Shown here piece by piece: positions 1,635 through 44,417 of a stretch of DNA of 59,884 bases. This stretch comes from Spirochaetota bacterium (lineage in GTDB: Bacteria; Spirochaetota; GWE2-31-10; JAFGQB01). The number at the start of each line of letters is the position of its first letter. Positions within the stretch are counted from its first letter, which is position 1. The stretch covers positions 1 through 59,884 of the forward strand of contig JAFGQB010000135.1 of the NCBI GenBank assembly GCA_016935915.1. Reading direction: 5' to 3'. The position numbers and the translations under genes were made by a program. The notes beneath the pieces are model-generated. The model did no database searches and was not told where the DNA came from. It was given only the letters and a program-made list of their open reading frames with translations.

Positions 1635-3380
1635 CTATTTAAAAACTTCTGTTACTATTATAAAGCTTGATGTTCCTAAACTCAAGGCATTTGCTGCGTC
1701 TGTATTATATTGGGCTGCCCTAGCTTGAATATAACCACCATCTAAACCAGTCAAAACAACAAATGTTTCTTTTACTGCCGAATAAGTTGTAGCATCGTTA
1801 GGCACTGCATATCTTACATCAGTTGATAAAAGATGAGATGAACTTCTTGTATTATTTGACGATGAAGGTTCAGATGATGCTGCTATTGCAGTTCCTCCCA
1901 TACAATACCTATTAGTTATTTGACTAACTCCAGAACTATCCCAATCTATTCTAGCATCCGGAGTGGCACTTCCTGAATTTCTTAAATTAAAAAATGCTTC
2001 AATTTTAAACATTCTATTTGCTGGCAATCTAATTAAAAAATCCGCTATAGCTGTAATTGTATTATTTACATATGATTGTGCAGTAAATAATTGATACATT
2101 CTAGGTCCCTTACTCCATTCATTATGCAAGTGTAAATCCCCATAATTTGAAGACACCGCAAAATCAGTAATAAGAGAATATCCATTAGCAGAATGGCACG
2201 ATATATATAGACAACCTTCGTCATCGGTATCTATACTTGTTTCATATTCTAGTATATGAATTTGTTCACCATTTTTATATAAAATTGCTCGACATGTATC
2301 ATTATCTTTTTCAAGTTTTATTATTATTCTTTCATTTTTCAGCAATGTATTTGTTAATGCAATACTAACATCACTACTTACTCCACCTTCGACAGCTTCA
2401 AGATAAAAAGTTCCATTATCACAATAAGCACAAATATAATTATTTGCATCTACATACCAACATAAACCCATTGTATAGCCTTCGTATTTGCTATATTGTT
2501 CTATATAAGCTATAAATGATTGAATTGTACAATAAATATGTATAATACTTGGATAACTCTGAGCAGGCATAAATAATAATCCCAACCTATTTATCCTGTC
2601 ATCCCACACAACACTAACAAGATCCATGATAACTTCAAACTTATTTTCCCATCCTGTAGTAAGTCCTTTATATTCCTGCAAAGCATTTAAATATCCAGAA
2701 TAAACAGGATCTTCTCTAACCATTTGCCAGTAAATACATGTTATATATGCATTTTGTGAGTTTATTAATGTTGTTGCTTCAATTCTTAAGTGAGTTATAT
2801 TGTTCCATCCTGGAGGTACTCCAACTGGTGTAAAATCTGATTTTGCAACCGCTAAATAATTAAATCCATTACTAAAACCACCAGCAGCGACAGCATATGT
2901 ATAATTATTTGCATTATCTTGTCCAAGTTTAAATTGAAAAGTATTAAATTTTGTTATATCAGTAATATAGAAAAATAGATATATTAAATCCGAAGTAGTT
3001 GATGACGATCCATCATTAAAAATACTCAGATCTAAAGCAGCAATATCTTTATATATTCCTATCCATCCAGCTGTATTGTCATTTTCTAAAAATTTTACTG
3101 AACTTTTATTAATAATATTATTTGTTGTGTCATCGGATGCAGTTGTTGATGCACTGCTCAAACTCCATTCTGTATAATCTTCGAAATCTTCTATTTCTTT
3201 AGTATTTCTTTCCCAGAAATATTCTTTCAATTTAGACTTTTCAAGATTAGTACATTGACTCCTTCTTAATTCTTCATCGGTTAACGAAAGTACTCCTTCA
3301 TGTGTCAATAAATTATCTGCATCTATTGGAGGAGATCCACCATTTACCCAAGCTATGGGAACGTAACTTCCAAATGCCAT
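1635..3380 (-). CDS. tail fibre / receptor-binding protein with two carbohydrate-binding-like beta domains
   Basis: 581 residues. A short N-terminal baseplate-type segment (about 1-60) is followed by two beta-rich modules. The first (about 65-235) has the look of a carbohydrate-binding jelly roll (DLIYLFFYITDITKFNTFQF, then GWNNITHLRIEATTL) and resembles the single domain of the gene at 13301-13798. The second (about 250-410) is LamG/concanavalin-like. The C-terminal part (about 420-581) contains Ser/Asn-rich loops. It lies last among the tail genes, just before lysis, which is the usual place for the receptor-binding protein. Exact family not identified. Confidence 0.6.
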   Translation of the reverse strand: MAFGSYVPIAWVNGGSPPIDADNLLTHEGVLSLTDEELRRSQCTNLEKSKLKEYFWERNTKEIEDFEDYTEWSLSSASTTASDDTTNNIINKSSVKFLENDNTAGWIGIYKDIAALDLSIFNDGSSSTTSDLIYLFFYITDITKFNTFQFKLGQDNANNYTYAVAAGGFSNGFNYLAVAKSDFTPVGVPPGWNNITHLRIEATTLINSQNAYITCIYWQMVREDPVYSGYLNALQEYKGLTTGWENKFEVIMDLVSVVWDDRINRLGLLFMPAQSYPSIIHIYCTIQSFIAYIEQYSKYEGYTMGLCWYVDANNYICAYCDNGTFYLEAVEGGVSSDVSIALTNTLLKNERIIIKLEKDNDTCRAILYKNGEQIHILEYETSIDTDDEGCLYISCHSANGYSLITDFAVSSNYGDLHLHNEWSKGPRMYQLFTAQSYVNNTITAIADFLIRLPANRMFKIEAFFNLRNSGSATPDARIDWDSSGVSQITNRYCMGGTAIAASSEPSSSNNTRSSSHLLSTDVRYAVPNDATTYSAVKETFVVLTGLDGGYIQARAAQYNTDAANALSLGTSSFIIVTEVFK

Positions 3381-13809: not shown

Positions 13810-14175
13810 CTATTCCTCATCTAAACCCTGATAAGCAATTATAGTTCCTGAGACTATTGTTATTTCTGTAAATCTTCCTTCAAAGACTGATCCAGCTTCA
13901 AAAGTTATGTTTGTTATACCTGAGACATTCCCATTGCAAGTTAATGCAGCATCCGTTACTATTCTTACACCTACAAATATATGGCCATCATCTGGAGTTA
14001 TTGTTGCAGCTCCACTGTATTGCCCCCCATATTGTCCCATTGAAGCTTTTATAATATGTTTTGTTTCATTGATATGCATCTTTATCTCATTGTACATATC
14101 TTCAATATATGCAATACTTCCATCTTTCTTATATAATTTACTTGATTGCGGTGAATATAAAGAATCTTTAGACAT
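13810..14175 (-). CDS. structural/decoration protein, putative
   Basis: 121 residues. The N-terminal 45 residues are helical (KDGSIAYIEDMYNEIKMHIN), followed by a compact beta domain (GQYGGQYSGAATITPDDGH to the end) that ends YQGLDEE. Small proteins of this shape occur as head fibre or decoration proteins in Firmicutes phages. It lies 11 nt upstream of the carbohydrate-binding-like gene and just after tandem terminators, so it likely opens a new transcript. Confidence 0.45.
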   Translation of the reverse strand: MSKDSLYSPQSSKLYKKDGSIAYIEDMYNEIKMHINETKHIIKASMGQYGGQYSGAATITPDDGHIFVGVRIVTDAALTCNGNVSGITNITFEAGSVFEGRFTEITIVSGTIIAYQGLDEE

Positions 14176-14195
14176 TATATCATCTCCTTAATAAA

Positions 14196-14269
14196 AAAAA
14201 TCTTATATATCATTATATAAGATTTTTCTTATTAAAAGGAATCTATTATTTTTTTAATATAGATTCCTT
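14196..14269 (-). terminator. tandem Rho-independent terminators after the primase operon
   Basis: Two hairpins in series. One pairs 14196-14209 with 14214-14227 (14 bp, 4-nt loop) and is followed on the minus strand by a T tract. The other pairs 14236-14246 with 14259-14269 (11 bp) and covers the primase stop codon. They separate the primase operon from the capsid-side genes. Confidence 0.85.
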
Positions 14270-19861: not shown

Positions 19862-20446
19862 TTATTTTTTCTTCAATATCCATGCAAAATATTTTTCTAA
19901 ACCTTTAATTAAATAACAACTTCTTTTCTCAATAAGTTTATATCCATACTTTTCAAATATCTTTTTATAATCTCTTAAATTTAATTCAATTAATATAATA
20001 TATTCACTTGCTATATTTGCCATTTCTTTTAAAATCCAATTGCTATCAACATGAATATGTTGCAATACCGCCATTGTATAGATGGTATTGAATTCATTTT
20101 CTTTAAATTTTAAAACACAATCTTCAATTGGCTTATTAATAATTCTTGCTTTTAATTCAGGAAAAAACTCTTTTTGTTTTTTTACTGCTTCTGTGCTAAT
20201 TTCAACACCTGTCAACGATTTATAGCCATCAATAAATAAACCATTTAGATTTCTTCCACAATTACAGCCTATTTCTAATATTTTCTTATTCTTAGGCACT
20301 TTATATTTAGCTAATAAACTTAATAAATATCTTGTCCTTTGTTCAGTATGTGGCCTAATATAATTTTCTGTTTTATTATGATCGTGCGGTGATTGCCAAT
20401 AATTCAAACATTCTTCAAGGCTATTCTTTCTAATATCATAATTCAT
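19862..20446 (-). CDS. class I SAM-dependent methyltransferase of the glycan module
   Basis: 194 residues. The SAM-binding loop is KILEIGCNCGRNLNGL (about residues 55-70), the acidic residue ending strand 2 is in LTGVEISTEAV, and the post-motif strand is NTIYTMAVLQHIHVD. It probably methylates a sugar or lipid-linked glycan intermediate. It overlaps the GT29-like gene by four bases, so the two are co-translated. Confidence 0.7.
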   Translation of the reverse strand: MNYDIRKNSLEECLNYWQSPHDHNKTENYIRPHTEQRTRYLLSLLAKYKVPKNKKILEIGCNCGRNLNGLFIDGYKSLTGVEISTEAVKKQKEFFPELKARIINKPIEDCVLKFKENEFNTIYTMAVLQHIHVDSNWILKEMANIASEYIILIELNLRDYKKIFEKYGYKLIEKRSCYLIKGLEKYFAWILKKK

Positions 20447-21231
20447 ATTTTAGATCTCCATTCTTTAAGTATTTTATTATCAATAATAATTCTATCATCA
20501 TTTCTAAATACTTCTAATAGTAATTTTATTTGTATGTTGTAATTATGAACTAATTTTCCTTTTCTTCTTTTCTTGCCATCAACTCTTACAAGTTTCTTCT
20601 CAAGATCATCCCATTTTAAAGTTTCCACTGGTAAACTATAAAATGGATGATAGCCCACCGAATAAAAGTCACACCCAACTATTTCTAATGATTTTATGTC
20701 CATACTTAAGATATGTAAAATTGTCAAAGTACTCATATTTGGATCACTTCTGTTTAAAATAGTTTGAAGTTCACCCAGAAATATATTTGTTACTGGGACT
20801 ATAGTAATTTGTTTATTCTGTCTTTTAGCTTTTTCAAAATCTGAATTAATTTTTATGAATTTACCTAAAAAAGCTTTATCCCTCGAAGATCCATTCAATG
20901 GATCTCGTTTAGAGACAAAATATTTTATACCATCACCTTGTAACATTTGAATTCTTCCTAAGTTGAACTTATTTGCTGTATAATGCAACATAGTATTAAT
21001 AGCACCTGTGTGATATAAAACATCAGTACGAGATCCTATATCTTTATGATACTTTTTTTGTGACATAACTGGATAAGATTGATTCATTCGTACCACTACA
21101 TCAGCAGCATTAATTTTCTTTCCCAATCCACTATTTTTTAATGATTTACTAGGACCAACTAAAATAACTTTTTTACCTTCTAAATATTTTCTATAATCTT
21201 TTATATTATTCTGGTAGTTCTGCATGTTCAT
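20443..21231 (-). CDS. sialyltransferase-like glycosyltransferase (GT29 type)
   Basis: 262 residues. KKVILVGPSKSLKNSGLG with KINAADVVVRMNQS (about residues 19-50) is the sialylmotif-L-like signature of family GT29, which transfers sialic or other nonulosonic acids from a CMP donor. A second block near MSTLTILHILSMDIKSLEIV and GCDFYSVGYHPFYS fits the motif S/VS region. In this operon, with nonulosonate-pathway genes, the natural donor would be a CMP-nonulosonate made by the neighbouring enzymes. GT29 domains are known mostly from eukaryotes and a minority of bacterial capsule loci. Confidence 0.65.
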   Translation of the reverse strand: MNMQNYQNNIKDYRKYLEGKKVILVGPSKSLKNSGLGKKINAADVVVRMNQSYPVMSQKKYHKDIGSRTDVLYHTGAINTMLHYTANKFNLGRIQMLQGDGIKYFVSKRDPLNGSSRDKAFLGKFIKINSDFEKAKRQNKQITIVPVTNIFLGELQTILNRSDPNMSTLTILHILSMDIKSLEIVGCDFYSVGYHPFYSLPVETLKWDDLEKKLVRVDGKKRRKGKLVHNYNIQIKLLLEVFRNDDRIIIDNKILKEWRSKI

Positions 21232-22318
21232 CCCATCCTATTATTTGTTTTATTATTTTTAAATATTCATTGTATAATAAATCAATTTCCCTTAATGTAT
21301 TTCTTGTAATATCAAAGTTACTATCAATTTCTTTTTGCAATATAGATATTATTTGAGTAATATTTATATTACTTCGTCTTCCTAAATCACTAAGTATCAA
21401 AGAATCTTCTTTTATCTTAATTGCTTCTTTTTTTACATAATCAGGAGCTGCATGAATACCTAAACCGTTAAAAGTTACTAAATGTCCCCATCCACGTCCA
21501 TCCTCAGCTATTAAAAATGATGGTTTTCTGTTTTTTAAAAACCATTTATGTGCGTGAAGTCTAAAACCTATATGCATATCTATATTGTTGTAATAATCTA
21601 AATTGCTGGAATCTCCTGATAAATCAACATACTTTTTATATAATCTTTCATCACTAAGTACTTGATGAGTCGTTAAAATTACCTTAAATTTAAAATGTTT
21701 TTCAAGTTCATTCTTTAACTTATCAACTTCTTTATAATAATAAATATTATGTGGAAGTGAAATTGCGATTTTATTGATAGAATAACATTCTAATGATTTT
21801 TTTATTTTAATTTTATCAAATAAAGCTAAATCGCCCAAAACAGGCACTTCTAAACCATTATATCTTAACAAATTACTTGTTAAAACATCTCTACAGGTTA
21901 CACAACTGTTTTCATCATTTAAAAGATATTTTAATAATGCTTTTTCATATGAATTAATTTTGTTTTTAGTCTGGGCAATTGTTCCTGGATATACACACCA
22001 CGAACATCCTAAAGCAAAAACAGGAATATTTAACCTTATAGCTTTTTCAAGATATTTAATTCTAGTTTTTAAATTCTCTTGACCTTCTAAAGATATTCTA
22101 AAAGCAGGCATTAATATTTTGTCATAATGATCTTTTAAATTTAAAGAATTAAATAATTGTTCTCTATTTTCTGTTGATTTTGCTATTGATACCACATCAA
22201 AATATATTTCTTTTTTAGAATGATCTTTGATTAATTTTATTAATGACTCAACTATTAGATCATCCCCTGAATTTCTAAGTCCATCAATCGCATAGGGTGT
22301 TAATATTAATAAATTCAT
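21206..22318 (-). CDS. polysaccharide pyruvyl transferase-like protein
   Basis: 370 residues. The N-terminal YAIDGLRNSGDDLI with a GD motif (about 9-22), ALGCSWCVYPG, TCRDVLTS and the late HIGFRLHAHKWFL (about residue 240) are typical of the PS_pyruv_trans family, which transfers pyruvate from PEP to form ketals on exopolysaccharides or wall sugars. It overlaps the GT29 gene by 26 bases. The sugar acceptor cannot be read from the sequence. Confidence 0.75.
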   Translation of the reverse strand: MNLLILTPYAIDGLRNSGDDLIVESLIKLIKDHSKKEIYFDVVSIAKSTENREQLFNSLNLKDHYDKILMPAFRISLEGQENLKTRIKYLEKAIRLNIPVFALGCSWCVYPGTIAQTKNKINSYEKALLKYLLNDENSCVTCRDVLTSNLLRYNGLEVPVLGDLALFDKIKIKKSLECYSINKIAISLPHNIYYYKEVDKLKNELEKHFKFKVILTTHQVLSDERLYKKYVDLSGDSSNLDYYNNIDMHIGFRLHAHKWFLKNRKPSFLIAEDGRGWGHLVTFNGLGIHAAPDYVKKEAIKIKEDSLILSDLGRRSNINITQIISILQKEIDSNFDITRNTLREIDLLYNEYLKIIKQIIGWDEHAELPE

Positions 22319-22328
22319 ATATTACCTC

Positions 22329-22892
22329 TCAATCAATAAGATTCTTTATATAACAAGTTTCTTTATTAAAATTAAAATACATGCTATTATAATATTTACC
22401 ATTGTAATATTTTCTATTTGGTAATATTGCAATTTCACTTCCATTAAATTCATCAATCATCTTTTCCCAAAACTTTATATGTGGCGAACACGAATAACAT
22501 TCTCCAAAAATATTTTCTAAATTCAAAGATGAAAAGCCCCATTTTAATAATTGATAACAAGCAATTCTTCCATATCCTTTACCTATATATTCAGGGTTAA
22601 CAATTAAACTTATTTCGCCCAATCTATTTTCCCATTGAATACCTACAATTCCTATACATGCAATCAATTTCAAATCTGGCATATTTCCATACATACCTAT
22701 ATATCTATGATTAGAATTTCTATTACATATTTCATTATGATAAAAATTACTTTGCATTTCCTTTGTTAATTTTTGAGTAGTTCTGAGAATATTCCCATCA
22801 AGAAGATTTCTCCATTTACGAACTAGATCAAAAGATTTTTCACACAAACTATCTAACTTGAAATTCATGGGTATATTTATATCGAGTTCCAC
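22329..22892 (-). CDS. GNAT N-acetyltransferase, PseH-like candidate
   Basis: 187 residues. The acetyl-CoA loop is GEISLIVNPEYIGKGYGRIA (about residues 98-117; the R/Q-x-x-G-x-G/A motif is IGKGYGR), followed by the last GNAT strands (ILPNRKYYNGKYYN). It overlaps the cytidylyltransferase gene by 44 bases. In pathways making pseudaminic acid, an acetyltransferase (PseH) acts on the 4-amino sugar from PseC, which fits the neighbourhood. GTG at 22892 is the likely start; the ATG at 22868 is the alternative. Confidence 0.65.
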   Translation of the reverse strand: MELDINIPMNFKLDSLCEKSFDLVRKWRNLLDGNILRTTQKLTKEMQSNFYHNEICNRNSNHRYIGMYGNMPDLKLIACIGIVGIQWENRLGEISLIVNPEYIGKGYGRIACYQLLKWGFSSLNLENIFGECYSCSPHIKFWEKMIDEFNGSEIAILPNRKYYNGKYYNSMYFNFNKETCYIKNLID

Positions 22893-23571
22893 TCAAATCG
22901 CCTTCTTTCATTACATACATTTTAATAATATCTGATACCTTATTAAATTCTTCTAAAGTATCTATACTCCATTTATCTCTAAATAATGTTTTATCATCTG
23001 AGCCAGCATAATAAGAATTAAATGTTCCAATTTTATATTTATCAGGTCTATTCTTAAATGCCAATGTTACATGTTCCCTTTCTTCTTTATTAGCAATATT
23101 ATTTATAGCAATCATAGCTTTTTTAGTCATTGCTTCAACATCAAGACCACTGCAATAATTACCTTTATTATGCGAAAAGTCACATTCATTATATATATGA
23201 TGCATCATTATTTCATCAATTAAATAAGAATTGAAAGCCAATAACGGACAATCATGTGTTAGTCTTACAATGTTTTCAACTTCACAGTCAAGACCTTTTT
23301 CAATTTCTTCAACAGTCTCAACAAATCTTCCTAGAACATCATTTCGATCTTCCATATTGCTTATATGTACATATGCATCCTCATAATAATCCATTATAAA
23401 ATTAACATCTTTAGGACTATTTGTCGTTGCTAAAACAACATGATCAATTGTCTTCGCTCGTCTACCTGCAGCGATTACATATTCAAGTAATGTATTCACA
23501 CCTATTTTTAAACCTGCTTTTCCTGGAAGCCGACTAGAATCAATTCTAGTCGGTATTATTACTATATTCAT
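22849..23571 (-). CDS. CMP-nonulosonate cytidylyltransferase (PseF/SpsF family)
   Basis: 240 residues of the CTP_transf_3 fold: PTRIDSSRLPGKAGL (residues 7-21) is the nucleotide-binding loop, and NIVRLTHDCPLLAFNSYLID carries a metal-binding Asp. SpsF of spore coat and PseF of pseudaminic acid pathways are the closest types. It would activate the nonulosonic acid with CTP, giving the donor for the GT29-like enzyme downstream. Located one gene after the synthase block. Confidence 0.75.
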   Translation of the reverse strand: MNIVIIPTRIDSSRLPGKAGLKIGVNTLLEYVIAAGRRAKTIDHVVLATTNSPKDVNFIMDYYEDAYVHISNMEDRNDVLGRFVETVEEIEKGLDCEVENIVRLTHDCPLLAFNSYLIDEIMMHHIYNECDFSHNKGNYCSGLDVEAMTKKAMIAINNIANKEEREHVTLAFKNRPDKYKIGTFNSYYAGSDDKTLFRDKWSIDTLEEFNKVSDIIKMYVMKEGDLSGTRYKYTHEFQVR

Positions 23572-23588
23572 TGTTTCTCCTCATTTCT

Positions 23589-23927
23589 TTACTCATAATA
23601 AAATAACCATTTTTTTACTTGTTTCCATTCTTTTATACTTTCAAAAAATTTTCTTTCTTTTTCTTCTTTCATTTGTTTAATTATCATAAAAAAATATTTT
23701 ATAAATTTATCATCTTTCAAAAGAATATCAGTTAAAATAAAATAATGTTCATTTCCACAAATTGTTCCAAATACACTAGTTTTATATATTTCTTTATTAT
23801 GATAATTTATTTCGTAAAAATCATCATAATTATAATTTAAAAAACTGTGAAGTCTTATCCTTGTATAATGCAAATTTTTATAATTAAATGAATAATTATT
23901 TTTAAATATAATTTTTTTCTTATCCAT
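23589..23927 (-). CDS. unknown protein of the glycan module
   Basis: 112 residues, aromatic and basic (Tyr/Phe/Lys-rich, KKIIFKNNYSFNYKNLHYTR), ending WKQVKKWLFYYE. No domain recognised. Its start overlaps the preceding gene and it precedes the cytidylyltransferase, so it belongs to the operon. Confidence 0.45.
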   Translation of the reverse strand: MDKKKIIFKNNYSFNYKNLHYTRIRLHSFLNYNYDDFYEINYHNKEIYKTSVFGTICGNEHYFILTDILLKDDKFIKYFFMIIKQMKEEKERKFFESIKEWKQVKKWLFYYE

Positions 23928-24204
23928 TCTTAACTATTTTACCATTCTTTAAAATATATCCTTCTCTTCCACTATTTCTAAAATCATATATTTTATAGGC
24001 CTGATTATAAACTTCCTTTTCTATATCAAGTTTCTGCGATATTTGTTTCAAAGGGGCAACTAAATTTAATAAATTTCCAGACATCTCAGTATCATTATTA
24101 TAATAATATGCGATATCCGCTTTCCTTTGATAATCAGCTATTTTAAATGCAATTGCATCTATTACTCTTTTTCTGAAAACATTTTTTTTAAATATATCTA
24201 GCAT
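23920..24204 (-). CDS. small helical protein of the glycan module, unknown
   Basis: About 94 residues from the ATG at 24204, chosen because GAGG lies 9 nt upstream; the longer frame would start inside the synthase gene. Mostly helical with a C-terminal YILKNGKIVKNG tail. It starts 1 nt before the synthase stop. Function unknown. Confidence 0.45.
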   Translation of the reverse strand: MLDIFKKNVFRKRVIDAIAFKIADYQRKADIAYYYNNDTEMSGNLLNLVAPLKQISQKLDIEKEVYNQAYKIYDFRNSGREGYILKNGKIVKNG

Positions 24205-24205
24205 A

Positions 24206-24823
24206 TTACAATACCTCACTTAATTGCTCTGGAGTTCTTGCAAATTCTCCAGCATCTAAACCTGTTGAATCTTCTAATTTATAATGCCATTCAATAACAC
24301 TAGGAAGTAAATTTTTAAATAAATTAAAATTTGTTGTATGATCTGAGATTATACAACCAGGTTTTAATTTCATTTTTAAATAGTCTTTTTCATCTGCTGG
24401 ATAATTACTAATACACCACATTTGCTTATAATTCTTTTTATTTCTTTCTAAATATAAAGGCACATTTGAAGAAATATATAACATCATATTATCAGGAATG
24501 TATTTTATTAAATAATGCAAATCTGTATTATTTGCAATCTTCACAAAAGGAATATCATAACTTAATAAAAAGTTTAATGATGCCCTGTCAAAAACTGATG
24601 CAGTCACCCAATATCCTAATTCACGTCCATACCAATATGCATAATCAAACGATTGTCTACTCAGAGGTATATTATCTCCTGCTTCACGAAATAACTGCCA
24701 TTTTACAATTATTTCATGTCTTCCGGTATCAATTTCTTTTAACTGATCATACATCTTCGATATATAATCTTTTGAATTTTTGCAAGTGTTCCCACTTCCA
24801 AAATCTAATATAATTGTACTCAT
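24206..24823 (-). CDS. short NeuB/PseI-family nonulosonic acid synthase-like protein
   Basis: 205 residues, clearly related to NeuB/PseI/SpsE but lacking the ~60-residue C-terminal antifreeze-like (SAF) domain and shortened elsewhere; family members are about 330-350 residues. Matching blocks are IIVKWQLF (VKFQ block), TASVFDRASLNFLLSYDIPF (about 70-90), VKIANNTDLHYL (KIAS-type), then NYPADEKDY, CIISDHT and EWHYKLEDSTGLDAGEFART near the end. The normal reaction condenses PEP with a 6-carbon amino sugar to give a 9-carbon nonulosonic acid. Whether this minimal form is active is unknown; some substrate residues may be missing. Confidence 0.65.
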   Translation of the reverse strand: MSTIILDFGSGNTCKNSKDYISKMYDQLKEIDTGRHEIIVKWQLFREAGDNIPLSRQSFDYAYWYGRELGYWVTASVFDRASLNFLLSYDIPFVKIANNTDLHYLIKYIPDNMMLYISSNVPLYLERNKKNYKQMWCISNYPADEKDYLKMKLKPGCIISDHTTNFNLFKNLLPSVIEWHYKLEDSTGLDAGEFARTPEQLSEVL

Positions 24824-24829
24824 TTTATT

Positions 24830-25156
24830 TTATTTTCCTTTCATTTTAACAATTAATTCTACTCTATTCCTACAATAAGTTTTATCAAAGATATTTGTAA
24901 CATGTTTCTTTACTGTATTTTCAGTAATAAAATGTTTAATAGCTATTTCTTTATATGATAAACTTGTAAGTAAGTCTCCTAATATTTCATTCTCTTTAAT
25001 ACTCAAATTTGAAAGATTTATATTATTAATTAAAGCCAATTTACCTGAAAAATATTTTAATTTATCAATGCTTTCTTTTACCTTGAATCCTCTCTCGATT
25101 CTTTCCTGATATAAAATAATTGCAGTTTCATAATATAATTTTTCAAACATCTTCAT
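24830..25156 (-). CDS. LuxR/GerE-type regulator with C-terminal HTH
   Basis: About 108 residues from the ATG at 25156, which overlaps the end of the rha gene (a longer frame uses a TTG). The C-terminal 60 residues are a LuxR-type helix-turn-helix: LSIKENEILGDLLTSLSYKE, then IAIKHFITENTVKKHV and NIFDKTYCRNRVELI. The N-terminal part is helical with no response-regulator domain. It precedes the synthase gene by 6 nt and may control the glycan genes. Confidence 0.7.
   Translation of the reverse strand: MKMFEKLYYETAIILYQERIERGFKVKESIDKLKYFSGKLALINNINLSNLSIKENEILGDLLTSLSYKEIAIKHFITENTVKKHVTNIFDKTYCRNRVELIVKMKGK
25131..25154. repeat. 24-bp direct repeat, copy 1 (flank of rha insertion)
   Basis: TAATATAATTTTTCAAACAT plus CTTC, identical to 26048-26071. 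This copy spans the stop of rha and the start of the LuxR-type gene. Confidence 0.9.
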
Positions 25157-25892
25157 TAACACCAATTTTTTCAATTTCAATATTTGGTAATATCTCTTTA
25201 AATCCTAAACTCTTTGACATTTCAATAACTCTTTTTTTTGCTAATTGAAATATATCTTTGTAATACATTTCATTATTCATTCCTTCAATTATTGCAGTTT
25301 TAACAATCATATCCGCTACAATAATCTTAGATAATTGTTGTATATTTAAAATTTCACGAACATTTTTAAATTTTTCTTTAAGTATAAAAAACGCTGAATT
25401 TTCCATTTTACTATAAATCATATAATATTTATCTGAACTCTTAGACCCTTGTTTCTTAGCGTATTCTATAAATATTTTTATTATATCTGTCTCTTGCTTT
25501 CTTTCAATTTTACTTTGATTTCTGGTTTCAATATATTGTTCATTCTGCTTTTGTGTTTTCTGCTCTATTATCCATTTTTTCATTTGATGAAATTGTTTTG
25601 ATATTTTAAGTTTCATTTTCATAACTGTATCAATTTCGTTGGCTTTTGTTCTCATATTCATAATTAAAAATATAAATTGTTCTTCATTTAAGTAATAAAC
25701 TTTTAAAGGCGCACCACCTTTTTTAGTTTTAGGTTTTAGCATCTCAAATGCTAAAACCCCTAATGTTTTTAATTCTTTTTCATATGTTTCAACCAATTTA
25801 TAAATAGTTCTATGTTCCCTTTTTAATTCATTTGCAATAATATTTGTTGACACATAGATTTCATCTCTTTTCACTGTCAATAAATTATTCAT
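25143..25892 (-). CDS. Rha-family phage regulatory protein (pRha)
   Basis: 249 residues. The N-terminal ~100 residues match the pRha domain: VSTNIIANELKREHRTIYKL, KTKKGGAPLKVYYLNEEQF and LIMNMRTKANEIDTVMKMKL. The C-terminal part is helical with a long Lys/Glu coiled coil. Rha proteins are phage regulators, and several act as antirepressors or interfere with host factors. It has its own promoter (25969-25997) with inverted repeats overlapping it. It lies inside the glycan operon flanked by a 24-bp direct repeat, so it looks like a later insertion. Confidence 0.82.
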   Translation of the reverse strand: MNNLLTVKRDEIYVSTNIIANELKREHRTIYKLVETYEKELKTLGVLAFEMLKPKTKKGGAPLKVYYLNEEQFIFLIMNMRTKANEIDTVMKMKLKISKQFHQMKKWIIEQKTQKQNEQYIETRNQSKIERKQETDIIKIFIEYAKKQGSKSSDKYYMIYSKMENSAFFILKEKFKNVREILNIQQLSKIIVADMIVKTAIIEGMNNEMYYKDIFQLAKKRVIEMSKSLGFKEILPNIEIEKIGVNEDV

Positions 25893-25913
25893 AGTAAATA
25901 AACCTTCCTATTG

Positions 25914-26014
25914 GTAAATTTTATTTACTACATTTGAAATGTAGTAAACATTTAATACATCAATAAGCATTATACATTAATTACTTTATAGTGTAAATAA
26001 TATTATCTATTTAC
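25914..26014 (-). promoter_or_regulatory. rha promoter with three overlapping inverted repeats
   Basis: The minus-strand promoter is TTTACA (25992-25997), 17 nt, TATAAT (25969-25974). Three inverted repeats surround it. One is GTAAAT-TTT-ATTTAC (25914-25928). A second has 12-bp arms TTTACTACATTT around a central base (25924-25948). The third, GTAAATA and TATTTAC (25993-26014), covers the -35 box. All share the half-site GTAAAT or GTAGTAAA, which suggests repressor-controlled autoregulation. Confidence 0.75.
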
Positions 26015-26047
26015 CAGATTTTAGTTGTTTTCAAAAGTTAGTATTAT

Positions 26048-26071
26048 TAATATAATTTTTCAAACATCTTC
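26048..26071. repeat. 24-bp direct repeat, copy 2 (flank of rha insertion)
   Basis: Identical to 25131-25154. Here it covers the last codons of the aminotransferase (IEDV-stop) and the bases just downstream, which duplicate the LuxR-type gene start. Confidence 0.9.
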
Positions 26072-27151
26072 TATTAATAATTTCATATTATTTTCCCAGT
26101 TAATAATTTTACCAATTATTAAACTTTGTTGTCCTTCAGATAATGTATAAAAAATTGGGATACTTACTACTTGACCATAAATAGTAGCAGTATATGGACA
26201 ATTAACACAGCTTTTTTTATGGTATGGATGGTCATATACAGGGGGATAATGAACTACACACATTATATTATTAGCTTTCATATACTCAATAAATTTATCT
26301 CTATTATGAGTTTTTATAATAAATAAATGCCATACATTTTCAAACTGTTGTCTAACTACTTTTACATTTACCATGTTTTCAAAAGCTTTTAAATATTTAA
26401 TGGCTATTTCTTTTCTTTTTATTATAAATTTGTCAATCTTTTTAAGTTGAGAGTTCCCCAGAGCTGCGTTAATATCTGGCATTCTATAATTATATCCAAT
26501 ATGTAGTTGTTTATTATCAAATGTTTTATACCTTCCATGATTTCTAAATGTCTTTACTAAGGTATCATAAAACATATCATTTGTTAAAACTGCACCACCT
26601 TCACCTGTTGTTATATGCTTTACTGGATGGAAACTATAACAAATTATATCAGGTGTAGCAATTTTTGATTTTTTTGTTATTGCACCAAACGCATGACAGC
26701 TATCAGATATAAATACTAAATTATGTTTTTTACAAATTGATTTAATTGTTTGATAGTCAACTAATTGTCCACCCATATCAACGGTTATAATTGCCTTTGT
26801 TTTTGGTGTTACAAGGTTTTCAATTATGTATGGATTAATAAGTAAAGACTCGTTAACATCACAAAATACAGGTTTCGCCCCTAAGTAACAAACTGCATTC
26901 GCTGTGGCTGTAAAAGTTATTGATGGAACAATAACTTCGTCACCTTCTTTTATTCCTGCTGCAAATAACGCACAATGAAGAGCAGCCGTTCCACTGTTAA
27001 CCACTGAGCAATATTTAAAACCTGTATAATTTGATAAATTTTCTTCGAACTTATCAATCACAGATCCGCCTGTTAAAGTATCACTTTTTAAAACTTCAAC
27101 GACTGCATCAATATCTTTTTGATCTATATATTGTTTTCCGTAACCTATCAT
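26060..27151 (-). CDS. pseC: DegT-family PLP aminotransferase, PseC-like
   Basis: 363 residues. The start MIGYGKQYIDQKDIDAVVEV is the PseC-type opening (close to PYGKQYIDEDDIKAVVEVL in reference enzymes). The cofactor region has SDSCHAFGA, and the PLP lysine lies in YSFHPVKHITTGEGGA (about residue 180). It transfers an amino group to the 4-keto sugar from PseB, giving UDP-4-amino-4,6-dideoxy-sugar. It overlaps pseB by four bases (ATGA). C-terminal residues are within the duplicated 24 bp next to rha. Confidence 0.85.
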   Translation of the reverse strand: MIGYGKQYIDQKDIDAVVEVLKSDTLTGGSVIDKFEENLSNYTGFKYCSVVNSGTAALHCALFAAGIKEGDEVIVPSITFTATANAVCYLGAKPVFCDVNESLLINPYIIENLVTPKTKAIITVDMGGQLVDYQTIKSICKKHNLVFISDSCHAFGAITKKSKIATPDIICYSFHPVKHITTGEGGAVLTNDMFYDTLVKTFRNHGRYKTFDNKQLHIGYNYRMPDINAALGNSQLKKIDKFIIKRKEIAIKYLKAFENMVNVKVVRQQFENVWHLFIIKTHNRDKFIEYMKANNIMCVVHYPPVYDHPYHKKSCVNCPYTATIYGQVVSIPIFYTLSEGQQSLIIGKIINWENNMKLLIEDV

Positions 27152-28116
27152 TTTATTAATTTCTCCATTTCTTTTATATTTATTTCATCTTGATCCATTG
27201 AACTATAATCATTATTATTAAAAAACATTCCTTTATGATTATCCCATCTGTCATAATTTAAATTTAATTTATAAATAGATGGGTATACTATAAAGAAAGA
27301 ATTATCAATTTCTATAGTCCTTTGAGATTCTTCTTTAGAAAATAAAATCTCGTGCAATTTTTCTCCCTGTCTAATACCTATCATTTTAATATTTTTATCA
27401 TTAGTAAATAACTGAGCTAATTTTCTAACTTCCAAACATTTTAATTTAGGAATAAAAATTTCTTCACCTTCCATTAATTTCAATGATTTTACAACAAATT
27501 CAACAGCATTTTCTATTGTTATCCAAAATCTAGTCATATTAAGATCAGTTAATGAAATATGTCCTTCATCTTTCATTTGTTTGTTCCATAATTCAATTAC
27601 ACTTCCACGACTACCAATTACATTTCCATATCTTACACATGAAAATTTAGTATTTTTATTTCCACAATAATTATTACCATGTATAAATAATTTTTCCATA
27701 ACTGCTTTTGTACAACCATATAAATTAATAGGTTTTACTGCTTTATCAGTGCTAATTGATAGTACTTTTTCGACACCTCTATCAATAGCAGCATTTATTA
27801 TATTTTCAGCGGAATTTATATTTGTTTTTACTGCTTCAATGGGATTGTATTCACATGAAGGAACGTGTTTCTGAGCAGCCGCATGTATTACATAATTGAT
27901 TCCCTCAAAAGCTCTATACAATCTATCCTTATCCCTTATATCACCTATTAAATATTGAATTCTTTCATCTTTAAATTGTTCCCTCATTTTCCATTGTTTA
28001 CATTCATCCCTTGAGAAAATATAAACTTTTTTTACATCTTCTTTTAATATTCTTTTTACAAAAGCATTTCCAAACGTTCCAGTTCCACCAGTTATTAATA
28101 TTTTTTTATTTTTCAT
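27148..28116 (-). CDS. pseB: UDP-N-acetylglucosamine 4,6-dehydratase/5-epimerase, PseB-like
   Basis: 322 residues of the extended SDR family. The NAD loop is TGGTGTFGNAFV (8-19), then IFSRDECKQWKMREQF, IGDIRDKDRLYRAFEG and YVIHAAAQKHVPSCEYNP, all characteristic of PseB; the catalytic triad region is STDKAVKPINLYGCTKA (Asp/Lys/Tyr, about 128-144). This dehydratase starts pseudaminic acid synthesis from UDP-GlcNAc with C5 inversion. An AAAGG ribosome binding site is followed by ATG at 28116. Upstream lies the paired hairpin element. Confidence 0.88.
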   Translation of the reverse strand: MKNKKILITGGTGTFGNAFVKRILKEDVKKVYIFSRDECKQWKMREQFKDERIQYLIGDIRDKDRLYRAFEGINYVIHAAAQKHVPSCEYNPIEAVKTNINSAENIINAAIDRGVEKVLSISTDKAVKPINLYGCTKAVMEKLFIHGNNYCGNKNTKFSCVRYGNVIGSRGSVIELWNKQMKDEGHISLTDLNMTRFWITIENAVEFVVKSLKLMEGEEIFIPKLKCLEVRKLAQLFTNDKNIKMIGIRQGEKLHEILFSKEESQRTIEIDNSFFIVYPSIYKLNLNYDRWDNHKGMFFNNNDYSSMDQDEINIKEMEKLIK

Positions 28117-28138
28117 AAATTTTCCTTTCTGTATTAAA

Positions 28139-28239
28139 AAAGAAGTTTTGCAAATCTAGATCGCAGCTCGATTTGCAAAACTTCTTTATACTATTTTTTA
28201 TATAGTTTGGTCTGGCTGCGATTCAGACCAAACTATATA
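28139..28239. promoter_or_regulatory. two long hairpins with complementary loops upstream of pseB
   Basis: Hairpin 1 pairs 28139-28156 with 28170-28187 (18 bp, no mismatch) and has a 13-nt loop. Hairpin 2 pairs 28199-28214 with 28224-28239 (16 bp) and has a 9-nt loop. The loops contain ATCGCAGC (28160-28167) and GCTGCGAT (28215-28222), exact reverse complements over 8 nt, so they could kiss. On the minus strand, hairpin 1 is followed by six T and reads like a terminator or attenuator just before pseB. Confidence 0.85.
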
Positions 28240-28265
28240 ACATAGATATTGTATCACAAATCATT

Positions 28266-28808
28266 TTATTTGCCAATTAAATATCCTAAATTTAATTTCT
28301 CTAATTTATCAAATTCATTCCTGGTTAATTTACCAAAAAAACTCAGCAAACTAGGGAATGGAGCTGACGAGGTACAACCATCAAAAACAAGTCTTCCCCT
28401 TATAAATAATAAACAATCAGCACTTATAATATAATCGTGGAAATAGCTCGTATCAGTTCTAGCAGGAGATAAAATAATTATCTTAGATTTACTAATACTT
28501 GCCTTAGCAAACCATTTTTTTAAATCTCTACCATATGGAGGATTCAACCATCCCCAACCTTTAAATAACCAAGGATCTTCGAGTGAATTATCCTTAATTG
28601 ATAAATACTTTTCTACTTTTCTATTTTCATGATCAGCCGCAAGATCTATTTTAAATCTAAAGATAGAATTTAATTGATTAAAAAAATTATCTGGAGTTTC
28701 ATAATCATGTTTTTCACTACTAAATAACGCCCCTTTTGTATCAACGAAATTAGGATTAGTAAAAATTATGGCACTTGAAGGATTATTATTTTTTTTATCA
28801 CTATTCAT
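28266..28808 (-). CDS. phage DNA N6-adenine methyltransferase (Dam type)
   Basis: 180 residues of the phage Dam family: YETPDNFFNQLNSIFRFKID opening, DLAAD in place of the usual SAM loop, the catalytic WGWLNPPYGRDLKKW (about residues 83-97) and late IFIRGRL-type block. It would methylate adenine in phage DNA, giving protection from host restriction. It lies upstream of the pseB hairpins and 18 nt after a helical small gene. Confidence 0.85.
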   Translation of the reverse strand: MNSDKKNNNPSSAIIFTNPNFVDTKGALFSSEKHDYETPDNFFNQLNSIFRFKIDLAADHENRKVEKYLSIKDNSLEDPWLFKGWGWLNPPYGRDLKKWFAKASISKSKIIILSPARTDTSYFHDYIISADCLLFIRGRLVFDGCTSSAPFPSLLSFFGKLTRNEFDKLEKLNLGYLIGK

Positions 28809-31593: not shown

Positions 31594-31647
31594 ATCATAA
31601 TATAAAAACGTGAAATTGTCAATATAATTATACTGACAATTTCACGT
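31594..31647 (-). promoter_or_regulatory. promoter of the antitoxin-like gene nested in the portal terminator
   Basis: TTGACA (31617-31622), 17 nt, TATGAT (31594-31599) drive the antitoxin-like gene. The -35 falls in one arm of a perfect 14-bp hairpin (31608-31621 with 31634-31647) that ends in TTTTT and terminates portal transcription. Confidence 0.75.
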
Positions 31648-39870: not shown

Positions 39871-39970
39871 ATTATATCACGTTACACATATACATGCAAT
39901 GAAGCATGAATAATGTAATATAAAAGTAATAAAAAAGAGCCATAATGTTAAGTTATGACTCTTTTTTATT
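39871..39970 (-). repeat. repeated promoter-terminator cassette, copy A
   Basis: Contains promoter P2, TTGCAT (39894-39899), 17 nt, TATAAT (39871-39876), and a hairpin 39928-39970 built on AATAAAAAAGAG / CTCTTTTTTATT that terminates the upstream operon. About 90 bp is nearly the same as 41485-41587. Confidence 0.85.
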
Positions 39971-39971
39971 A

Positions 39972-41484: not shown

Positions 41485-41587
41485 ATTATACCACATTACA
41501 CATATACATGCAATAAAGGCATGGATAATGTAATATAAAAGTAATAAAAAGAGTCATAATGTTAATGTTACGACTCTTTTTATTACT
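41485..41587 (-). repeat. repeated promoter-terminator cassette, copy B
   Basis: Promoter P3 is TTGCAT (41508-41513), 17 nt, TATAAT (41485-41490). The terminator hairpin pairs 41540-41555 with 41572-41587 (16 bp). This cassette is nearly the same as copy A at 39871-39970. Confidence 0.85.
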
Positions 41588-43885: not shown

Positions 43886-44417
43886 TTTTAAAAAAAATAC
43901 TCGGTAGCACCTAGGTAGCACCTAGGTAGCACTAATTTTAAAATTGTGACTTTTTGAAACTTTTTAAATATTAACATATGTATATATTTTCATAATATTA
44001 TTTAGAAAATTATATTAACAAGTATATTCGTTTGTAACCAGTTACTTTTTTTAAAAAAACCGCGTAACAATTGGTATTACTGCGTTATAATACATTTGTT
44101 ACCTGTTACCTATTTTTTAGTATATACACTTATATATAAACATAAATATAAATATATATACTCTTATATATATTTATATTTATAAGTAACAATATATATA
44201 TAAGAGTATATAATATAGTAATAGCTTAAAAAACTATGTTACTTTTTTTGTGACCAACTGTAGCAAAAACCATGTTATTAGTTACAAAAAATTATTTTTT
44301 GTTGATATTAGTGTATTATAGATGATTATAAAAAAAAGTAACTATAAAAAAATAATACGATATCGAAATTTCTTTCAAAAACACGCATATAATTGATTTT
44401 AAATTTGGAGGTATAAT
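43886..44417. other. candidate replication origin / regulatory region
   Basis: A ~530-bp gene-free stretch. It holds three tandem 11-bp iterons (43903-43934) and at least eight GTAAC/GTTAC pentamers between 44034 and 44342. There is also a 17-bp inverted repeat (44157-44173 with 44194-44210; arms TATACTCTTATATATAT) in a very AT-rich unwinding-type tract. It lies directly upstream of the replication operon. Confidence 0.55.
43903..43934. repeat. three tandem 11-bp iterons
   Basis: GGTAGCACCTA repeated twice, then GGTAGCACTA. An additional TAGCACCT lies at 43862-43869. The 11-bp period is close to one helical turn, as in iteron origins and phased operator arrays. Confidence 0.85.

Follow-up and report, generated by a model that had tools for sequence, protein, structure and literature searches.

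Twin hairpins with complementary loops upstream of a pseB-like gene in a putative phage contig

Introduction

Purine riboswitches contain two neighbouring hairpins, P2 and P3, with loops that are able to pair with each other. To our knowledge, it is uncommon, apart from the known riboswitches, for two loops of a single short leader in bacteria or phages to pair naturally. Kissing hairpins are also used by antisense attenuators, where they act on the terminator of a leader, and the known kissing regulators carry interior loops in their stems (PMC4878617). Stem-loops at the very 5' end of a transcript stabilise the mRNA, as in ompA (Emory 1992 and Arnold 1998, cited in PMC2777011). The double-hairpin elements of mitochondrial genomes are dispersed mobile repeats. 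Here we analyse two long hairpins upstream of a pseB-like gene, which an earlier note had described as a possible kissing-loop element.

Results

The analysed stretch of 59,884 nt, hereafter the window, belongs as contig C129 to a genome bin of 3.7 Mb and reads as phage with 27% GC. Its phage genes encode an SPP1-type portal, minor capsid protein 2, a Dam methyltransferase and a sugar cassette, and all likely genes surrounding the twin hairpins are on the minus strand. Upstream of the hairpins lies the gene for a phage Dam-type N6-adenine methyltransferase (dam, 28266-28808, minus strand, PF05869, E 9e-20) and downstream, after an intergenic gap of 149 nt, the first gene of the glycan cassette, which encodes a pseB-like UDP-GlcNAc 4,6-dehydratase (27148-28116, minus strand). 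This gene matches the TIGR03589 PseB model (E 1.2e-119) with 399 bits, slightly short of the cut-off of 407.75, and also Polysacc_synt_2; the genes at the head of the cassette match the PseB and PseC models with scores under the curated cut-offs. The cassette (19862-28116) contains PseB-like, PseC-like, short PseI-like, cytidylyltransferase-like and acetyltransferase genes, and it adjoins a minor capsid gene also in the related phage contigs L024, L025, L153 and L195, where pseB is just 49-56% identical. The order on the minus-strand RNA is hairpin H2, 10 nt, hairpin H1, U run, AAAGGA and pseB start, and our best reading is that the element sits at the boundary of the structural and the glycan modules.

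Folding of the minus-strand RNA predicted for H1 (28139-28187; arms 28139-28156 and 28170-28187) an 18-bp stem without mismatch at -22.1 kcal/mol, and for H2 (28198-28240; arms 28198-28214 and 28224-28240) a 17-bp stem without mismatch and a 9-nt loop, AAUCGCAGC, at -22.7 kcal/mol. The folded loop of H1 is 13 nt long in this RNA (GAGCUGCGAUCUA), and on the plus strand 2-3 extra inner pairs with one mismatch are possible. An A/U-rich linker of 10 nt (28188-28197, minus strand) joins the hairpins. The whole leader folds at -47.9 kcal/mol, as compared to -22.2 +/- 3.2 kcal/mol for shuffled sequences (z = -8.0). The twin hairpins with complementary loops are thus confirmed, with small corrections: both long perfect stems are present and H1 has the 18 bp given before, the perfect stem of H2 measures 17 rather than 16 bp, and the close spacing is 10 instead of 11 nt.

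Such pairs of stems are rare. When pairs were counted with a minimum of 12 bp per stem and a distance of up to 40 nt, H1/H2 was the only pair in the window, none was found in 220 kb of DNA from the same phylum, and none in 1.57 Mb of fetched viral DNA. The viral DNA gives a rough background, as its AT content is on the whole probably lower than that of the window. The 165 kb of other contigs from the same bin hold one pair, with loops that share 3 nt, and hence no pair comparable to H1/H2 with matching loops was present in about 2 Mb (1.96 Mb) of other DNA. The element occurs once in the 3.7 Mb bin, and it is therefore not a dispersed or mobile hairpin repeat of the double-hairpin or REP-like kind. 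Inverted duplication of one hairpin could be rejected as the source of the complementary loops, since the H1 arm aligns with one third of random 17-mers as well as it does with the H2 arm, and the two stems are thus unrelated in sequence. A comparison with Rfam gave no match above the gathering score across the whole window and just sub-threshold hairpin look-alikes at the site, in agreement with the remark in the earlier note that it fits no standard riboswitch.

The loops hold an exact complement of 8 nt. In the minus-strand RNA the H2 loop carries AUCGCAGC (28215-28222) and the H1 loop GCUGCGAU (28160-28167); on the plus strand these positions read GCTGCGAT and ATCGCAGC, respectively, and are the exact reverse complements that had been reported. 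The duplex of the two motifs is contiguous, Watson-Crick paired and predicted at -12.3 kcal/mol, and 5 of its 8 pairs are GC in a genome of 27% GC. When random 9-mers and 13-mers were drawn from the window, an 8-nt complement appeared in 8.3e-4 of the draws (about 1 in 1,200), so the complementarity is beyond chance, although somewhat less rare than the 1 in several thousand estimated before. A complement with at least 5 GC appeared in 3 of 2,000,000 draws, about 1 in a million; this GC condition was picked after the loops had been seen, and 8.3e-4 is therefore the cautious figure. As the window holds only one such stem pair there is little multiple testing inside it.

At least 120 IMG/VR stretches contain the pattern ATCGCAGC-N(32-62)-GCTGCGAT, and since it is short and palindromic, recurrence by chance is expected. 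None of the 80 loci checked among these matches (L028-L107) had either motif within a hairpin loop, which led us to reject the motif as a conserved loop element elsewhere. A region in the relative L023 (2917-2992), where loops share TATGTATAC, was also rejected as a second example; it is a low-complexity AT region with TATATA and GGTTTC repeats, does not precede pseB and is probably an origin. The larger AT-rich region around it (2784-3220), between divergent genes, is full of GGTTTCA/TGAAACC repeats and of TATATA hairpins whose loops are complementary, and looks like a replication origin; the window has a similar AT palindrome region at 44106-44215.

H1 is followed by a U run, UUUUUU (28136-28141, minus strand), 23 nt ahead of the pseB start, as the earlier note had said in describing a T run just before this gene. 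If the stem is counted as 18 bp, the first three U are paired to the upstream AAA. In our own implementation of a published terminator formula, H1 scores +4.8 with a 15-bp stem and -24.7 with the 18-bp stem that includes the AAA/UUU pairs, and H2, with no U run on either strand, scores -64. A simple terminator scan that accepted loops of 3-8 nt only did not list H1 with its 13-nt loop. By these scores H1 is terminator-like on the minus strand but borderline, depending on whether the three A-U pairs at its base are counted.

Upstream of H2 we found a predicted promoter, TTGGCA-17 nt-TACAAT with an extended -10 TG (28248-28276, minus strand, TGATACAAT), which matches the consensus at 10 of 12 positions plus the TG. 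It is the strongest such site on the minus strand within the gap between dam and pseB, and it overlaps the dam stop. Extended -10 sites of this quality occur 6 times on the 60 kb minus strand, so about 0.005 are expected per 45 nt. From this consensus match, transcription would start at about 28241-28243, at the foot of H2, and the twin hairpins would therefore form the leader of pseB. The earlier note did not include a promoter; with one predicted upstream, the element reads as a 5' leader rather than as a boundary terminator alone. H1 lies only 23 nt before the start codon, so there is no room for a promoter after it. The Shine-Dalgarno-like AAAGGA of pseB (28122-28127, minus strand) is unpaired in the predicted fold.

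Pairing of the loops is constrained by geometry. In a crude rigid-rod estimate (2.8 A per pair and 6 A per linker step) the 10-nt linker reaches about 66 A, as compared to the 105-120 A needed for full stems and an 8-bp loop helix at 120-180 degrees, and both complete stems and the loop helix do not fit together unless the stem bases fray or the stems fold back at less than 64 degrees. Kissing in cis is thus implausible in this model as long as both stems (17 and 18 bp) are complete, and since the 10-nt linker is too short, loop pairing would need opened stem bases, or would have to occur in trans or co-transcriptionally. The length conflict disappears if each stem is opened by about 5 pairs at its foot, and in H1 these pairs include the terminator base. 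As long as the 3' arm of H1 is still to be transcribed, the energies of the loop-paired state and of the best nested fold lie within about 1 kcal/mol of each other (pseudoknot penalty 9.6 kcal/mol). Once H1 is complete it is strongly favoured by the energies, and any switch must therefore act during transcription. In the energy model the loops pair on top of both stems at no cost in strain, so the numbers beyond this stage overstate the kissing state. According to these estimates loop pairing, if it occurs at all, would act in cis during transcription or in trans between molecules.

Relatives were searched for with portal, terminase, dam, minor capsid and pseB. IMG/VR gave portal relatives down to 29% identity, among which only L148 is close (portal 82%, minor capsid 85%, dam 66%). 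Its contig ends at 4196 inside dam, eleven codons before the end of the gene and about 60 nt short of the start of the twin hairpins; strong hairpins may break assemblies at this point. The genome collections gave no portal or minor capsid relatives and only weak dam matches (29-30% identical), and the sole match in a DNA-level blastn against phage records was the dam gene of an Acinetobacter phage. Syntenic relatives have a pseB that is 49-56% identical and one hairpin before it, unrelated in sequence to H1 and H2. In L024, L025 and L026 the junction consists of minor capsid, a small gene and pseB, with one clear terminator about 50-60 nt before pseB (score 14.7 in L024 and 30.8 in L025). L152 and L153 have a 17-bp hairpin with a U run that abuts the pseB ribosome-binding site, and L195, with the closest pseB of the syntenic set (56%), has a weak A/U hairpin alone. 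A hairpin upstream of pseB is thus present in all three other syntenic junction types. Neither a second hairpin nor loop complementarity was found in any of these readable syntenic relatives, so covariation lends the loop pairing no support. Lack of conserved loop complementarity in relatives is one of the two observations that the earlier note named as refuting, although these relatives are distant and the nearest one, L148, stops before the site. In the sequences at hand, a hairpin before pseB is common to the relatives and the twin arrangement with loop complementarity is seen once.

Other hairpins were observed in the window. A near-perfect palindrome at 31608-31647 (ACGTGAAATTGTCA...TTGACAATTTCACGT) overlaps a TTGACA promoter that follows the portal gene; the corresponding TTGACA promoter is present in L148 (about 1555-1585), but the palindrome is not. 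Two similar intergenic hairpins with AAAAGAGYCATAA stems and the loops TGTTAAG and TGTTAATG lie 1.6 kb apart (39927-39971 and 41540-41587), and the A and T runs on either side of them point to a bidirectional terminator that is repeated. A 21-bp A/T hairpin at 14188-14235 is another that precedes a gene; its foot touches the ribosome-binding site, GGAG, of the gene at 13810-14175.

Discussion

The explanation that we tentatively favour, while giving it rather less than even confidence, is that the element is the 5' leader of the glycan cassette, with a 5'-capping H2, a terminator-like H1 and a loop pairing that tunes read-through into pseB. We infer promoter use, termination, loop pairing and the direction of its effect as follows. 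Transcription would start at the extended -10 promoter overlapping the end of dam, giving an RNA that begins with H2, which would cap the 5' end. H1 and the U run, right before the pseB ribosome-binding site, would form a weak terminator or attenuator, and H1 may also stop read-through from the structural operon. The complementary loops would have been selected to pair. The H2 loop would be free when the H1 loop sequence leaves the RNA polymerase, and the 8-bp pairing could then form before H1 closes. As 10 nt cannot span two complete stems, we propose that pairing in cis strains the stem bases, including the A/U-rich terminator base of H1, and this strain should favour read-through into pseB. 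Consistent with such a leader are the z-score of -8.0, the improbable loop complement, the unrelated stems, the single copy, the promoter start at the H2 foot, the hairpins in relatives and the small energy gap between the loop-paired and the nested fold before H1 is complete. Against it stand the lack of a second hairpin and of loop complementarity in the relatives, a promoter that is a consensus match, the H1 score of -24.7 when the AAA/UUU pairs are counted, the energies that strongly favour H1 once it is complete, and the perfect stems, which differ from those of the known kissing regulators. The kissing-loop reading is thus plausible and statistically supported, but neither conserved in the available relatives nor easy in cis. 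Its most far-reaching form is a ligand-free, self-contained RNA switch, in which cis loop pairing during synthesis would mechanically open the A/U terminator base and let the polymerase read into the glycan operon; to this we assign only a small probability.

The chief rival, in our view somewhat unlikely, is that H1 and H2 are two ordinary hairpins, the former a boundary terminator or an RNase processing hairpin and the latter a 5'-end stabiliser of the ompA type, with a loop match that is a rare coincidence without a role. The relatives, which have a single hairpin or terminator at this place without a loop partner, agree with this, as does the recurrence of hairpins before genes in the phage group (window 14188-14235 and 31608-31647; L153 6866-6911; L023 12071-12111); 5'-terminal mRNA-stabilising stem-loops are in themselves established, as in ompA (PMC2777011). 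Such a coincidence would have a chance of 8.3e-4 for any 8-nt complement and of about 1e-6 for one as GC-rich, which argues against it.

The length limit in cis, about 66 A of linker as compared to 105-120 A, does not apply to pairing in trans. The partners that dimerise by H1-H2 kissing would then be two leader RNAs, or a longer mRNA and a putative short leader transcript that is terminated after about 110 nt, and the dimer would alter the stability or translation of pseB mRNA; a terminator after the twin hairpins would yield an abundant short RNA. We regard this as improbable: functional RNA oligomers are reportedly seldom observed in nature (PMC7357161), and perfect stems without interior loops are expected to stall at the kissing stage (PMC4878617). 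Perfection of both stems is equally what would be seen if the feature belonged to the DNA, with palindromes that arose from template switching or replication fold-back or that serve as operator or recombination sites, and no role in RNA. The promoter palindrome at 31608-31647 is missing from L148, which keeps the matching promoter, so at least that palindrome is not shared by the nearest phage. Template switching accounts for the stems, but not for why two stems of unrelated sequence should carry complementary loops. Hairpins with 17-18 bp arms and loops of 9-13 nt exceed the usual operators in length, and the element is single copy, all of which makes a feature at the DNA level quite improbable as well.

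If loop pairing controls termination, the locus would have a compact regulatory design without ligand or protein and would show how a phage sets the expression of its genes for the modification of surface sugars. If it has no such role, the locus is still a clean case in which to ask if loop complementarity of such rarity is a sign of function.

As compared to described systems, H1 and H2 resemble P2 and P3 of the purine riboswitches in being adjacent with loops that can pair, and differ in having far longer stems, no closing P1 helix or ligand core and no Rfam match. They share two adjacent hairpins with the mitochondrial double-hairpin elements, from which the single copy sets them apart. 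The stem of H1, its U run and its boundary position are those of the intrinsic (Rho-independent) terminators at phage module boundaries, where L024 and L025 have a clear terminator; unlike these, H1 has a long A/U-rich stem, a 13-nt loop and a preceding second hairpin with a complementary loop. Like the stabilisers of the ompA type, the leader (about 125 nt) has a strong hairpin at whose foot transcription is predicted to start, a second hairpin and an unpaired Shine-Dalgarno sequence; it differs from them in the complementary loops and the U run on H1. A leader hairpin with a kissing-capable loop and a terminator-like hairpin before the gene are found also in the pT181 antisense attenuators (PMC4878617), but here the partner loop is in the same RNA and the stems are without their interior loops. 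A single leader whose loops pair with each other would be a variant of both the antisense attenuators and the ompA-type hairpins.
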